NCBI GenBank assembly: GCA_005788935.1
Contig: SYAK01000526.1
Coordinates: forward strand, 1-6,574
Direction: 5' to 3'
DNA length: 6,574 nucleotides
Source: Pseudomonadota bacterium
GTDB taxonomy: Bacteria; Myxococcota; UBA9042; PHBI01
Shown here: in pieces, positions 1 to 6,574 of the stretch
Numbering within the stretch: the stretch's first letter is position 1
How the letters are laid out: each line of letters starts with the position of its first letter
Notes under the pieces: model-generated
What the model saw: the letters and a program-made list of their open reading frames with translations, nothing else
Database searches by the model: none
What the model was told of the DNA's origin: nothing
Made by a program: the position numbers and the translations under genes

Positions 1-164
1 ATCGAGCTCGCCTGGGGCAAGGTGAAGCGATGGCTGCGGACGGCGCGAAGGCGGACGCGAGAGGCCGTCGACGACGCACTCCGCGACATCATGTCGCTCA
101 TCACCCCCCCTCCGGCGCCGCCGGCTGGTTCAGGCACTGCGGTTGGAAATATCAGGCTTCATGA
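1..164 (+). pseudogene. IS630/Tc1-type transposase, C-terminal end, frameshifted
   Basis: Frame 1 from base 1 reads IELAWGKVKRWLRTARRRTR, then a helical tail ending in DIMSLITP. This matches the end of the DDE_3 catalytic domain of IS630-family transposases, where the last catalytic glutamate follows an NPI motif; that glutamate would be codon 2 here. After the run of seven C (104-110) the family-typical ending continues in another frame: SGAAGWFRHCGWKYQAS and TGA at 162-164. Frame 1 itself runs on without homology to a TGA at 184-186. The gene is therefore split by one base, most simply by an indel in the C-run. Everything upstream, including the first two catalytic aspartates, lies outside the window. 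Only eight bases separate the stop from the start of repeat A, so a normal inverted-repeat end is not evident and the element looks truncated at this junction. Family assignment is by remembered motifs. Confidence 0.72.
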
Positions 165-172
165 TCAAGAGA

Positions 173-808
173 GTCAGAGCTCATGAGGCGCTCGAGGCGA
201 AAAAATCGGACCAAGTTCAAGGATCGGATCATCGGTCTGCTGCTTGAAGCGGGCCTGCTGGACATGACCGCGCCCGACAGGCCGCACAGCCCGAAGCAGC
301 GGTACCGGACCACGAAGGCTGGGCTGGCGTTCCTGCCCGGCGCGGTCCGGAGGTGAGGCTGTGGCCGCGTCGCCTGTCGTCTCCCCGCCTCAGGCTCGGC
401 CGCGGACGTCCTGGACGAGGCGGAGGATGTCGGCGAGGACGCCAGCCGCGGTGACATCGCCTCCAGCGCCAGCACCTCGAACGATGAGGGGGTAGGCGCG
501 GTATCGACGGGTGGTGAAGGCGACCATGGCCTCCTCGCCGCGGAGGCTCGTGGGGGGGTGGTCGGTCGGGACGGCGACGGGGCCGACGCGGACCTCCTTG
601 GAGTGGCCCGGGACCGGGGTGACGCTCGCGAGGTAGCGCAGCGTCAGGCCTTATGCGCGCCAGGCTGCGACCCGCCCGGAGATCTCGGCGTCGAGGCCGG
701 CGAGCTGCGCCACGAGGCGCTCCGGGTCGGCCTCTTTGAGCCAGGGCGACGGGATGAAGGGCTCGACTTCCACGTCGGAGCGCGCGAGCTCCGCGCCAAG
801 CTCTCGCG
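173..808. repeat. Direct repeat copy A (Fic-like C-terminal ORF plus thrA 3' end)
   Basis: These bases match 3311-3951 in the same orientation. By eye the first ~245 bases differ at about 20 positions, so identity is roughly 90%. Similarity begins sharply at GTCAGAGCTCATGAGG and ends near base 808, where the copy leaves the thrA reading frame for unrelated sequence. Copy A lacks a six-base repeat unit present in copy B (the second GCGGAC of the latter) and has one extra base near 381-390. On its left it abuts the transposase remnant; on its right, the cargo genes. Confidence 0.92.
183..356 (+). pseudogene. Fic/AlbA-type C-terminal winged-helix fragment, copy A
   Basis: A 57-codon ORF starts MRRSRRKNRTKF and contains [15 protein letters not shown] and [12 protein letters not shown]. 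The pattern R-x-x-R-T-x-F, then LLE-x-GL-x-x-MT-x-PD-x-P, then Q-x-YR-x-T resembles the C-terminal winged-helix domain found at the end of many Fic-family and AlbA/Schlafen-type regulators. Full proteins of those families have several hundred residues; only this last domain is present. The reading frame is closed by the TGA at 162-164, just upstream of the repeat boundary. It differs from the copy at 3309-3494 at 9 of 57 residues. I infer a decayed 3' remnant cut by the rearrangement or the IS, although a small free-standing DNA-binding protein cannot be excluded. No convincing ribosome binding site is seen. Confidence 0.55.
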
Positions 809-809
809 A
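390..809 (-). pseudogene. thrA 3' fragment (homoserine dehydrogenase C-terminus), broken
   Basis: Read on the minus strand, this is the last ~140 codons of the aspartokinase/homoserine dehydrogenase gene that is intact at 3527-6016. It enters homology at RELGAE and continues through SDVEVEPFIP, PWLKEADPER, RVAAWRA, then GLTLRYLASVTPVP, GEEAMVAFTTRRYR and a C-terminus QDVRGRA. A TAA stop (plus-strand TTA, 651-653) replaces the codon after AAWRA, where the intact gene reads AAWRDAGL. Apart from that stop the frame is uninterrupted, which suggests a fairly recent loss. No aspartokinase part, NAD(P)-binding fold or start is present. It cannot encode a working enzyme. It marks the scar of the rearrangement that placed the cargo genes beside thrA. 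Confidence 0.9.
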
Positions 810-851
810 GGGGTTTGCCGTTCGACCGTGTGCTCGCCCGGTGCCGATGGG

Positions 852-880
852 TTGCTCCCGGACAGCGTGACGGCTATCAT
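852..880 (+). promoter_or_regulatory. Candidate sigma-70-type promoter for the 910 gene
   Basis: TTGCTC (852-857) and TATCAT (875-880) are separated by 17 bases. The -10 matches TATAAT at five of six positions; the -35 keeps TTG. Transcription would begin near 887, giving a leader of about 23 bases before the ATG at 910. The site lies in the unique ~100 bases between the end of repeat A and the gene. This is a pattern match only. Confidence 0.4.
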
Positions 881-909
881 CCGGCTAGGGACTCGGAAGC
901 GCCCCAACC

Positions 910-1494
910 ATGTGCCGGGATATGACGATGACCGTGGACCTCGCCCCCATCCTTGTCGCCCTCGTAGCAACCCCCGGCGCCGTGGCCGCGTGGGAGGTTG
1001 ACGATGTCGAGGACCCGACGTTGTCGGTCTTTGATGTCTCCGGGACGCCACGTCAGTTGGTTTACGTCTCGCCAACACCCTCCGAGCGTGACGCAGTCAC
1101 CGAGGCGCTTGTCAAGGCCGGCCATCCCCCTGCTTTCTATGCGCGCGCGACCGGCGTCGTGTGGCGCGCGCTGCCCGACGTTTTCAACGTATGGGCCGAG
1201 CGTGGAACGGGTCTGATGGTGCGCGCGGACGTCGCGACCCTCGCCGACGGGACGGCGGTCGACAGGGCGGCGATTATGTCCGTTCTCCCGTTTACGGCCG
1301 AGCAGGCCGTCGCTCGGGGCGTCAACCTTCAGACGGCGGACGCATCCTATACCATCGCCGAGCACTACAAGCATTCCGCAAGCTTCTCGCCCGACTACCA
1401 GGACTCGGGCGCGTGGGGCGACATCACTTGGGTGAGCGTCCTGGCGCATCAGCTCGCGCGTTGGCTCGACGTCTCGCTCGCAACGACGGCCTGA
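910..1494 (+). CDS. Unrecognised 194-aa soluble protein, convergent with the DUF4157 gene
   Basis: I do not recognise this protein. It starts MCRDMTMTVDLAPIL and ends ARWLDVSLATTA. It is rich in D, E, V and A, with no signal peptide, clear transmembrane segment or metal motif. A hydrophobic stretch near residues 12-28 is short and followed at once by acidic residues (WEVDDVED). Aromatic-rich parts are GVVWRALPDVFNVWAE near residue 85 and GAWGDITWVSVLAHQLARWL near the C-terminus. The first ATG is chosen because GGAAG (895-899) lies 10 bases upstream; ATG 922 is possible but has only a GGGA one base away. Codon third positions are mostly G or C, supporting a real gene. It sits inside the cargo bounded by the direct repeats and converges with the DUF4157 gene across a 78-bp gap. 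A role as immunity or accessory factor for that protein is a guess from position alone. Confidence 0.75.
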   Translation: MCRDMTMTVDLAPILVALVATPGAVAAWEVDDVEDPTLSVFDVSGTPRQLVYVSPTPSERDAVTEALVKAGHPPAFYARATGVVWRALPDVFNVWAERGTGLMVRADVATLADGTAVDRAAIMSVLPFTAEQAVARGVNLQTADASYTIAEHYKHSASFSPDYQDSGAWGDITWVSVLAHQLARWLDVSLATTA

Positions 1495-1514
1495 GCCCAA
1501 TCGACAGGCACGTA

Positions 1515-1545
1515 GCGAGCGCTCTCGGTTCCACGAGGCGTTCGC
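1515..1545. terminator. Hairpin in the convergent gap, possible bidirectional terminator
   Basis: GCGAGCGCTCTCG (1515-1527) pairs with CGAGGCGTTCGC (1534-1545) around the loop GTTCCA. This gives a 12-bp stem with one G-T wobble and one bulged T. It lies 20 bases after the stop of the 910 gene and 27 bases after the stop of the DUF4157 gene, where both transcripts end. Neither side has a clear T-tract, so intrinsic termination is unproven. Confidence 0.45.
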
Positions 1546-1572
1546 GGTACGCGCACGTAGCGGACAGACCCT

Positions 1573-3219
1573 TCAAGGGGTGGGCGTGGTCGCAGTCGAC
1601 CTGGTCTCTGGCGCGGGAGTCTCTGCCGCCGGTCCTTTATCGTCCTTCTTGACCAGGGTTCCGTTGACCCCGCCATTGGTCGACTTCGCGCTCTCAATCA
1701 TCCCTTTGTAGATCGAGAGCTTCTGCTCCTCCGTGGCTTGGTCGAAGGTCGCTGTAGGCTCGAGACCCAGCTCTTTCTTCTTCTTGTCGAAGACTTTCTT
1801 CATGATGGTTTCGGGTGATTCACCGGCCTCGCGGCCGCTGAGTCCGAGATCGCGCATGAAGAGGATCTCCGCACACGCAGGATCCGTCATGACCTCGGTC
1901 CTGAAGAAGACACGGGCCCATGTACGGTAGTTGACCGCGAGCGCTGCGCACGCTGCTGGCGCCATCCCCTCGGCCTCGGCCTTGGCGACGAGACGCCCGT
2001 TTTCGACCTTGTCGATGGTCTCGGTGTAGAGAACGCGGCCGAAGCTGCCGCTGTCGGGGTCGATCTGCCCGAGGACGTTCATCGCCGAAAGCATCGCGCC
2101 TTCAAGGAGCTTCGCGTCGGCATCGTCCTTGATCTTCTTCAGCCCATGGCTCTCAACCAGCCGCTTGGCGGCATTGTAGAGTTTTTCCATCGTGTCGCCG
2201 TTGTACGGCGCCATGGCGTTCAACGCTGCGAGGCGAATGCCCTCTTCACGCGTTAGCGCGAGCTTCTTTTCGTCGAGTTGCGTCTGAAGTCGCTTCTGCT
2301 CTTCGAAGTCGACAGTGACGACGGTCTCATGCGCCTTGGCGGCGTTGGCCGAGGCCTTGAACTCGGCCTGCATGGCCCGCATCTGCTCGAGCTCGGCTGC
2401 GAAGGTGGTTCGAATGTGCGCGCAATAGGTGTCGTAGGCCTGTGGAACGGTGATGACGGGCGCCGTGGTCTCGGTCTCGGGCGTGGTCCCCGCCGTGGGT
2501 GTCGCGCCGGCCCCGACTTGGGCAAGCGCCGCGTCGGCGTGGGGCGTCGGAGAGGTCGTCTCGACGCGCTGGACGACCTTCTTCTGGACTGCCTCGCCAC
2601 CGCCACCGCCATTCATTTCAGCCAGTATGGGTTCAGCCGATTTCCCGGCGACGACCGCGTCCGCGACCTTGTCCGCGTGTTGCTCGTAGGCATCGCCGGC
2701 CTTGCCGACGCCGCCCGACAAAGAGACACCGGCCTGTTGCTGTAAGACGTGGGCCGCCTCGTGGGCCGCCGTATGAAGATCAGGAGCCCCCTTGAATGCG
2801 ACGCTGGTCCCGGTCGCGTAGGCATCGGCACCCATCGCGGTAGCCCCCTCGGCCGCAGCCGAGTCGGTGTGCGCCACCACGTTCGAGATGTCGTAACCCC
2901 CGAACGCGTCCTGGATGGTCCCTCCGTGTGGCAAGGCCCCGCCACTGCCGGAGAGGCCATGGCCCGCGGCCGCGTGAACGTCCGATGTGTCGCCCCTGCC
3001 GCCGTGCTGCTGCAACGGCTGAAGCATCGCGGCCTGAGCATCATAGCCCTCGGCCGCGCGTACGGACGCTTTCAGTTGCACTGCGCTCGTGCCGCCGCTG
3101 ACCCGGGAACGCGCGGCAGATGACGAAGACGATGGGGCTGAATGCAGCGAGACTTGCGGAGTGTCGCTCCCTTTTCCTGCGAGCTCGTTCGACATCGTTG
3201 TCACGTTCTCATCCTTCAT
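1573..3219 (-). CDS. DUF4157 (HEAAH) protein with unrecognised helical C-terminal region
   Basis: The protein has 548 residues. Residues 1-50 are polar and serine-rich (SSSSS at 30-34) and lead to AVQLKAS, a sequence common before DUF4157 in myxobacterial proteins. Residues ~92-190 are the DUF4157 domain: [35 protein letters not shown], then the zinc-type motif HEAAH (153-157) followed by VLQQQAG and [10 protein letters not shown], whose E179 could be a third ligand. A Gly run (204-208) and Thr/Pro-rich linker (~221-258) follow. Residues ~260-520 are mostly helical, with heptad-like charge between 270 and 330, a lysine cluster [12 protein letters not shown] (474-485) and [16 protein letters not shown] do not recognise this part. 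DUF4157 proteins are often cargo or associated factors of extracellular contractile injection systems, but no structural genes of such a system are here. No signal peptide is visible. A second possible start is Met9. The 3' half is AT-richer than thrA. A toxin function for the C-terminus is inference only. Confidence 0.88.
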
Positions 3220-3269
3220 CGCTTCATCGAAATGCGCGGTCCCGCATCGGCTCCGAGAGTCACCTCGGG

Positions 3270-3298
3270 ACCCTAGCCGGTTGGCTGCACGCTGTCGA
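3270..3298 (-). promoter_or_regulatory. Candidate promoter for the DUF4157 gene
   Basis: On the minus strand TCGACA (3293-3298) and TAGGGT (3270-3275) are separated by 17 bases. The -35 matches TTGACA at five of six positions, but the -10 matches TATAAT at only three. Transcription would begin near 3263, leaving a leader of about 44 bases. The leader shows no strong Shine-Dalgarno: GATGAAGCG precedes ATG 3219, and AAGGA lies upstream of the alternative start at Met9. Weak pattern match. Confidence 0.25.
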
Positions 3299-3308
3299 CC
3301 GCAGGACG

Positions 3309-3494
3309 ATGTCAGAGCTCATGAGGCGCTCGGGGCGAAAAAATCGGACCAAGTTCAGGTTTCAGATCATCGGTCTGCTGCTTGAATGGAACCTGCTGGA
3401 CATGACCGCGCCCGACAGGCCGCACAGCCCGAAGCAGCGGTACCGGACCACGAAGGCTGGGCTGGCGGTCCTGCGGGGCGCGGCTCGGAGGTGA
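3309..3494 (+). CDS. Fic/AlbA-type C-terminal winged-helix ORF, copy B (possible remnant)
   Basis: This 61-codon ORF begins [16 protein letters not shown] and contains [20 protein letters not shown] near its end. It has the same domain as the ORF at 183-356: a winged-helix segment that normally ends Fic-family or AlbA-type regulators and binds DNA or regulates the protein. The start chosen is the ATG at 3309; AGGA lies only two bases upstream, so translation is doubtful. The frame stays open further upstream to 3120, but that part lies opposite the 5' end of the DUF4157 gene and has no recognisable homology. The Fic or AlbA catalytic part is absent. The ORF ends 32 bases from the convergent thrA stop, the same arrangement as in repeat A. 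It may be a remnant, or a small conserved neighbour of thrA that was duplicated with it. Confidence 0.5.
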
Positions 3495-3951
3495 GGCTTT
3501 GGCCGCGTCGCATGTCGTCTCGCGTCTCAGGCCCGGCCGCGGACGTCCTGGGCGAGGCGGAGGATGTCAGCGAGGACACCGGCCGCGGTGACGTCGCCGC
3601 CAGCGCCAGCGCCGCGCACGATGAGGGGGTAGGGGCGGTAGCGGCGGGTGGTGAAGGCGACCATGGCCTCTTCTCCGCGGAGGCTCGTGGCGGGGTGGTC
3701 GGCCGGGACGGCGACGGGGCCCACGCGGACGCGGACCTGCGTCGGGTGGCTGGGGACCGGGGTGACGCTCGCGAGGTAACGCAGCGTCAGGCCGGCGTCG
3801 CGCCAGGCGGCGACCCGCGCGGAGAGGTCGGCGTCGAGGCCCGCGAGCTGCCTGACGAAGCGCTCGGGGTCGGCCTCTTCGAGCCAGGGCGCGGGGATAA
3901 AGGGCTCGACCTCGACGTCGGACAGCTCGACCTCGGCGCCGAGCTCTCGCG
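3311..3951. repeat. Direct repeat copy B (Fic-like ORF plus intact thrA 3' end)
   Basis: This is the partner of 173-808 in the same orientation. It begins at GTCAGAGCTCATGAGG and ends inside thrA near codon 690, beyond which only this copy continues as thrA. Compared with copy A it holds an extra six bases (tandem GCGGAC near 3725-3736), which adds an Arg-Val pair to ThrA, and it lacks the in-frame stop. The left boundary adjoins the promoter region of the DUF4157 gene. Confidence 0.92.
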
Positions 3952-6043: not shown

Positions 6044-6574
6044 TCAAAGTATCAGGGCGCGTCGCACGAGGGCGTCGAGCTGCGGCCACTCGATGAGGAA
6101 CGCGTCATGCCCGTGGGCGCTGCGGATAGTCGCACGCTCGGTCGGGGTGCCGCTAGCGTCGAGCAGGTCCGCGAGTCGCTGCACCTCGGGCGGCGTGAAG
6201 AGCATGTCCGTGTCGAGGTCGACGACGAGGGCCTTGGCGCCGCGGATGCGCCCGAGCAGCGGCGCTGCATGCACGAGGTCGTGGCTGTCCATCGCGTCGA
6301 GGAGCGCGAGGTACGGGGCGGCCTCGAAGCGCTCCCGGAGGCTGTCCCCGAGGTGCTCGAGGTAGCCCGCGATGCGGGTCTCGCCGCGCGCGCCGGGCAC
6401 GGGCGTCAGGTGCGGCGCCTGGCGGGCCTCGAGGCCGGGCTCGGCGCGATAGGTCAGCATCGCGAGCTGGCGCGCGACCTCGAGCCCCCGGACCGGGTCG
6501 AGCGCGATCGCCTGCCGCTGGACGTGGTTGAAGCCCGCCAGCCACGCCGGCGCGAGGGCCGTCGCGCCGAGCGG
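6044..6574 (-). CDS. metX: Homoserine O-acetyltransferase, C-terminal 176 residues (5' end beyond window)
   Basis: The frame is open from the window edge, so the gene is partial at its 5' end. The visible part is the second half of an alpha/beta-hydrolase of the MetX family, which transfers acetyl from acetyl-CoA to homoserine as the entry to methionine synthesis. The fragment shows FNHVQRQAIALDP (15-27), GLEVARQLAMLTYR (30-43), LDAMDSHDL (92-100), then DTDMLFTPPEVQRLADLL (121-138) with D123 at the catalytic aspartate position. SAHGHDAFL (152-160) follows, with H156 at the catalytic histidine. The nucleophile serine lies in the missing part. The related homoserine O-succinyltransferase variant of this fold cannot be excluded from the C-terminus. 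The gene is directly upstream of thrA, 27 bp apart and on the same strand, so it probably shares its mRNA and supplies the next step for homoserine. Confidence 0.93.
   Translation of the reverse strand, partial: PLGATALAPAWLAGFNHVQRQAIALDPVRGLEVARQLAMLTYRAEPGLEARQAPHLTPVPGARGETRIAGYLEHLGDSLRERFEAAPYLALLDAMDSHDLVHAAPLLGRIRGAKALVVDLDTDMLFTPPEVQRLADLLDASGTPTERATIRSAHGHDAFLIEWPQLDALVRRALIL

Follow-up and report, generated by a model that had tools for sequence, protein, structure and literature searches.

Direct repeats of a host gene that flank foreign DNA, with one copy whole and one broken, are the hallmark that the locus described here shares with single-crossover insertion-duplication of the Campbell type, a process for which an integrase is not required. 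Genomic islands that target tRNA genes or gene ends are elements carrying a replacement gene end, and the attachment cores of gene-end integration are short; such islands share with the present locus a preserved gene 3' end and a second 3' end at the far side. In addition, the ends of insertion sequences (ISs) are common duplication breakpoints. With regard to the genes carried, the DUF4157 domain (PF13699) is presented in two reports as marking the effectors of extracellular contractile injection systems (eCIS) (PMC8213781, PMC11297309), and the latter report places 88% of known effectors no more than 10 genes away from an eCIS operon (PMC11297309). A literature search on DUF4157 in myxobacteria found no paper.

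The DNA stretch analyzed here, hereafter called the window, comprises 6,574 nt, and its features are collected in Table 1. The best-supported reading of the locus, to which we attach about an even chance, is an insertion mediated by homology of sibling origin, without an integrase and with an IS at its edge. Viewed against the described systems, the locus looks like an old scar left by an ordinary kind of recombination, and not like a new type of mobile element.

Table 1. Features of the window, in order of position.
Feature	Coordinates	Strand	Basis or detail
IS630-type transposase C-terminus	1..164	+	frame 1 as far as about 110, frame 3 from there, with GWFRHCGWKYQAS and stop at the end
Direct repeat, left copy	173..808	.	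alignment
Fic-like_C remnant, left copy, cut at 5' side	174..356	+	PF21247, E 3.6e-10
thrA 3' fragment, left copy, with internal stop and 6-nt loss	390..808	-	alignment
Cargo between repeats, GC 0.649	809..3310	.	composition
Words GACAGCGTG and CCGGCTAGGG upstream of 194-aa gene	861..890	+	word comparison
194-aa protein, function unassigned	910..1494	+	ORF
DUF4157/eCIS_core protein, 548 aa, HEAAH motif	1573..3219	-	PF13699, E 9.5e-11
Words GACAGCGTG and CCGGCTAGGG upstream of DUF4157 gene	3271..3296	-	word comparison
Direct repeat, right copy	3311..3951	.	alignment
Fic-like_C remnant, right copy	3312..3494	+	PF21247, E 1.9e-9
thrA-type aspartate kinase/homoserine dehydrogenase, intact, 829 aa	3527..6016	-	PF00742, PF00696, PF22468, PF03447 above cut-offs
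C-terminal part of upstream gene, read as metX	6044..6574	-	DNA match to L001, L005

The two repeats of the thrA 3' region lie in the same orientation, as the original prediction had claimed, and their global alignment comprises 635 aligned bases, of which 566 are identical (89%) and 69 are mismatched, with 7 gap columns that correspond to one 1-nt and one 6-nt indel. Confinement of the similarity to short blocks had been named as one outcome that would refute the original prediction; instead, the alignment exceeds 630 nt and crosses two gene ends, running from thrA over its stop and the intergenic gap into the Fic remnant, with an abrupt limit at both ends. Since the local alignment score of the two copies is 903 and all other direct repeats in the window reach at most 57 nt among the families listed (20 of 22), the pair is not attributed to chance. 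Identity amounts to 171/185 in the Fic-C part, 27/31 in the intergenic gap, 178/195 in the 3' part of thrA and 190/224 in the earlier part of thrA. The copies are spaced 3138 nt apart, and one identical base marks the start of both.

In both copies, the PF21247 match starts at position 19 of the 64-position profile, and the cut falls at the same base, so that Fic-like_C is read as a gene remnant; the Fic-like C-terminal ORF originally described therefore stands as a domain match present in both repeats, and falls as a whole ORF. The right remnant is convergent with intact thrA. The original prediction also had the gene end broken beside one border of the cargo and the gene whole beside the other, and these states are seen in the left thrA piece, where an in-frame stop occurs and the 6 missing nt fall within a conserved motif, and in the right copy, where the 829-aa ORF is open. 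On the far side of thrA, the DNA match to two Myxococcaceae MAG contigs (L001 and L005) continues from thrA into the upstream gene, which we take to be metX (homoserine O-acetyltransferase); a Pfam scan of this piece gave no match. The best thrA relatives found have 71–73% protein identity, and no genome was found above about 73% thrA protein identity to the window thrA. The host thus probably belongs to an unsampled lineage close to the two MAGs.

The cargo has a lower GC content than the repeats, the remainder of thrA and the gene upstream of it (0.712–0.742), and its GC3 is 0.78–0.80 compared with 0.91–0.93 in the comparison segments (thrA 0.91); by these two measures the cargo is compositionally foreign. 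It holds only two genes, in agreement with the original description, and these are convergent. For the 194-aa protein, three members were found in a protein search, its own sequence included, and the predicted model suggests a PH-like C-terminal half, a weak resemblance whose score may have little meaning. In the 548-aa protein, the eCIS_core match covers residues 105–164, and the HEAAH motif, read in the translation, is of the HExxH type; 958 relatives were identified among 7999 scored candidates. No Pfam domain besides PF13699 passed the cut-off in this protein, the best PDB sequence match had an E value of 0.34, and its structural model (mean pLDDT 57.2) gave a best Foldseek E value of 0.66, with a C-terminal domain that is helical by low-confidence prediction. 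The same C-terminal domain recurs without the DUF4157 core in two relatives (P0009 and P0010), which points to gain or loss of a module.

With the eCIS-associated DUF4157 effectors described, the protein shares the eCIS_core with its HExxH-type motif, a low-confidence N-terminus and a C-terminal domain that differs (PMC8213781, PMC11297309), whereas the window departs from them in having no eCIS structural gene within its 6.6 kb. The cargo most likely encodes a DUF4157 effector of a contractile injection system and a partner protein. Furthermore, each cargo gene is preceded by the words GACAGCGTG and CCGGCTAGGG in one and the same order, the two pairs being inverted with respect to one another. 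A shuffle test of these words gave P 0.006, and they are given no weight because 411 of 1888 random window pairs reached an equal alignment score; possibly they represent a shared promoter, a cassette end or chance.

The left edge of the window adds an element that the original prediction did not contain. The translation of the first 164 nt aligns with the C-terminus of an IS630 transposase (genome G002, locus L061) at 49% identity over 39 aa, and this IS630-type end stops 8 nt before the left repeat; the short piece gave no match in Pfam or NCBIfam. A run of seven C (104–110) lies at the change of transposase frame, which may reflect programmed frameshifting, decay by mutation or a sequencing error. 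In L061, the inverted repeat of the IS extends 17 nt beyond the transposase stop, and in the window the left repeat starts 9 nt beyond the corresponding stop, which by this comparison puts the repeat edge no more than about 10 nt from the expected end of the IS. This closeness is taken as a sign that the IS probably set the left breakpoint of the repeat unit. The likeness to the IS630 family lies in the relatedness of the window transposase C-terminus to the transposase of G002; the window shows the last 164 nt only, with a putative inverted repeat.

Absence of the cargo is the rule among the related thrA loci examined. An initial check of 37 loci (31 distinct genes), mostly with about 1.5 kb downstream, revealed no second thrA end; such flanks are too short for a copy about 2.7 kb away, and longer stretches were therefore compared. 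The resulting set of 26 loci, including 20 longer stretches picked among 96 family genomes with long enough contigs, contained no second thrA end, cargo-protein relative or Fic piece in the available stretch. The set includes a Kofleriaceae MAG (L004) and leaves out L003, which offers 1 nt downstream. In 24 of these loci, 10–12 kb downstream were available and held no thrA-end repeat, cargo or Fic piece. The two others, L001 and L005, are the closest relatives, and their flanks of 2056 and 731 nt, both under 10 kb, are so short that an element there could be missed. One locus of the initial check, L024, contains two short inverted self-matches within thrA.

The cargo-free state that relatives were expected to display was accordingly found at every locus with long flanks (24/24), whereas the possibility that thrA recurrently receives other cargos was not borne out, with no instance among the 26 loci, including the 24 with at least 10 kb downstream. 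In 95 of the 96 family genomes, a Fic-like_C query had no match at E ≤ 0.001; the remaining genome gave a single weak match. Searches for a donor gave no match in phages or viral contigs, and the plasmid search yielded two weak matches to the thrA region.

The divergence between the two copies bears on how they arose. For 139 thrA codons in the alignment, the differences counted were 27.5 synonymous and 20.5 non-synonymous, corresponding to a dS of 0.29, a dN of 0.072 and a dN/dS of 0.25, for which the bootstrap range (0.13–0.47) has an upper bound of almost 0.5. The dS is of comparable order to the 0.34 obtained in the same thrA region for a pair of Archangium species (L002 and L006); the L001–L005 row, which has a one-codon register shift, was left out of the comparison. 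When duplication in place with a neutral left copy was simulated, at an assumed right-branch dN/dS of 0.05, the mean non-synonymous share was 0.54–0.61, against an observed 0.43, and the observed share arose in 0–4% of runs (P 0.00–0.04) across the 8 of 16 settings reported, the rest having at most 60 runs in the required range. Since the observed share is rare in these simulations, some of the divergence most likely accumulated while both copies were functional thrA genes, and the left copy probably first diverged in a sibling lineage. By this simulation, the observed divergence fits the original suggestion of an incoming copy from a divergent relative better than it fits plain decay in place. 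Differences per codon position in thrA number 13, 8 and 30; the third-position excess was considered as sole proof of foreign origin and dropped, since synonymous changes also accrue when the right copy is under constraint.

In a tree of 32 proteins, the left and right copies are sisters (support 100/99), with a tip length of 0 for the right copy and 0.21 for the left, and decay, as read from these tips, fell on the left copy. Where the two differ, the consensus of at least 12 of the 13 nearest relatives is matched by the right copy at 8 columns, 2 of which (87–88) rest on the placement of the 6-nt gap, and by the left copy at 2 columns (84–85), which are gap columns read as placement of the same 6-nt difference. 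Polarization with L001 and L005 assigned 5, 4 and 6 changes to the left copy by codon position, an even distribution, and five changes to the right copy, with 31 of 51 not assignable.

The Fic-C part behaves differently from thrA: 14 of its 185 sites differ, 12 of these 14 differences are non-synonymous, and no constraint is visible. Its differences are fewer than those at thrA synonymous sites (Fisher P 6e-5) and not clearly distinct from those at all thrA sites (P 0.12) or in the intergenic gap (P 0.30). The Fic part thus looks younger than the thrA synonymous sites, a mismatch for which gene conversion or a separate arrival may need to be added to any model. Within this part (173–357 vs 3311–3494), a perfect run of 76 nt occurs and the differences are clustered.

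A repeat with one intact and one broken copy, foreign composition of the enclosed DNA, an IS-like end and absence from the relatives examined are the observations that any account of the locus has to accommodate. In the homology-mediated insertion that we favor, a foreign two-gene segment would have entered beside thrA by homologous recombination, the recombining homology being the thrA 3' end together with an already truncated Fic-like remnant. This thrA homology would have diverged in a sibling lineage before the two met (pairwise dS about 0.29), and the end of the IS630-type element would have set the left breakpoint. As an outcome, the chromosome would carry the thrA-end/Fic stretch twice, with one copy completing a working thrA and the other, useless, left to decay. 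What we infer is that the segment was joined by homologous recombination, that the homology came from a sibling and that the IS played a part. As in Campbell-type insertion-duplication, long host direct repeats flank DNA that is foreign, here by composition only; past the left repeat, where native sequence would be expected, an IS630-like end is found and both copies end at one base. The locus further differs from that system in that the copies are 11% apart, their common edge lies near an IS end, and neither a circular form nor a donor was seen. Counting against the insertion are the Fic-C and thrA divergences, which fit one uniform history poorly, the left-assigned changes, spread over codon positions as in plain decay, the size of the dN/dS test (139 codons, with its bootstrap bound near 0.5), and the shared start base at the IS end, which is unexpected for a random circle boundary.

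Several of these points would also fit partial duplication of the thrA 3' end in place, perhaps mediated by the IS, after which the cargo would have inserted between the two copies while the left one decayed neutrally. In the tree, neither copy has a closer relative than the other, the best other thrA being 72% identical in the protein search; at the 8 differing columns noted above, gap-dependent ones included, the right copy and not the left keeps the relatives' residue; the evenness of the left-assigned changes and a left breakpoint close to an IS end agree with such an origin; and the small divergence of the Fic part, free of constraint, suits a recent duplication. However, thrA carries an excess of synonymous over non-synonymous change that the simulation rarely reproduced, its synonymous differences exceed the divergence of the Fic part, and a second, independent event is required to put the cargo exactly between the copies. 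We regard duplication in place as possible but rather unlikely.

An assembly artifact, by which two strains or a metagenome repeat would have been joined into a chimera, draws on the start of the window inside an IS-like gene and on the longest contig for the 194-aa protein, which at 3122 nt is close to the repeat spacing; it is distinctly improbable, given that the window proteins have 2–4 member sequences each in the protein collection, possibly non-independent, and that the copies differ to a degree (11%) at which short-read assemblers usually separate sequences. Site-specific integration at the thrA 3' end, by an element bringing a replacement gene end, would account for an intact gene that retains its end, a second end at the far side and a cargo foreign in composition. 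The original prediction had offered such end replacement as an option while noting that no integrase is visible, and indeed a Pfam scan of six pieces of the 6.6-kb window showed none. In addition, the duplicated block exceeds 600 nt, continues beyond the end of the gene into the remnant of another one and is far larger than an attachment core, and a thrA-end repeat was found in 0 of 24 long-flank relatives, all of which sets the locus apart from gene-end-targeting islands and makes this route very improbable. Altogether, the original idea of foreign DNA enclosed by a duplicated gene end is sound, and homology-mediated insertion ranks above in-place duplication, which ranks above an assembly chimera, and site-specific end replacement comes last of the four.

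A more speculative extension concerns the mobility of the cargo. The longest contig for the 194-aa protein (P0001) measures 3122 nt, and those for two DUF4157 relatives (P0005 and P0009) measure 3125 nt; their nearness to the repeat spacing may be chance or may reflect a small circle. We consider it a long shot that the cargo and one repeat (about 3.14 kb) form a small circular or otherwise transferable cassette that lacks an integrase, uses the thrA end as a homology handle and spreads effectors among sibling myxobacteria. Were this the case, the free form of the cassette would be seen in the contigs of 3122 and 3125 nt, and homology borrowed from an essential gene, thrA, would offer a simple and overlooked way for injection-system effectors to spread in myxobacteria.

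Under the favored insertion, the locus would provide an example of effector-type genes that arrive beside a housekeeping gene and leave a duplicated gene end as the scar. It suggests that the edges of such arrivals can be set by an insertion sequence and by sibling-derived homology, without an integrase.
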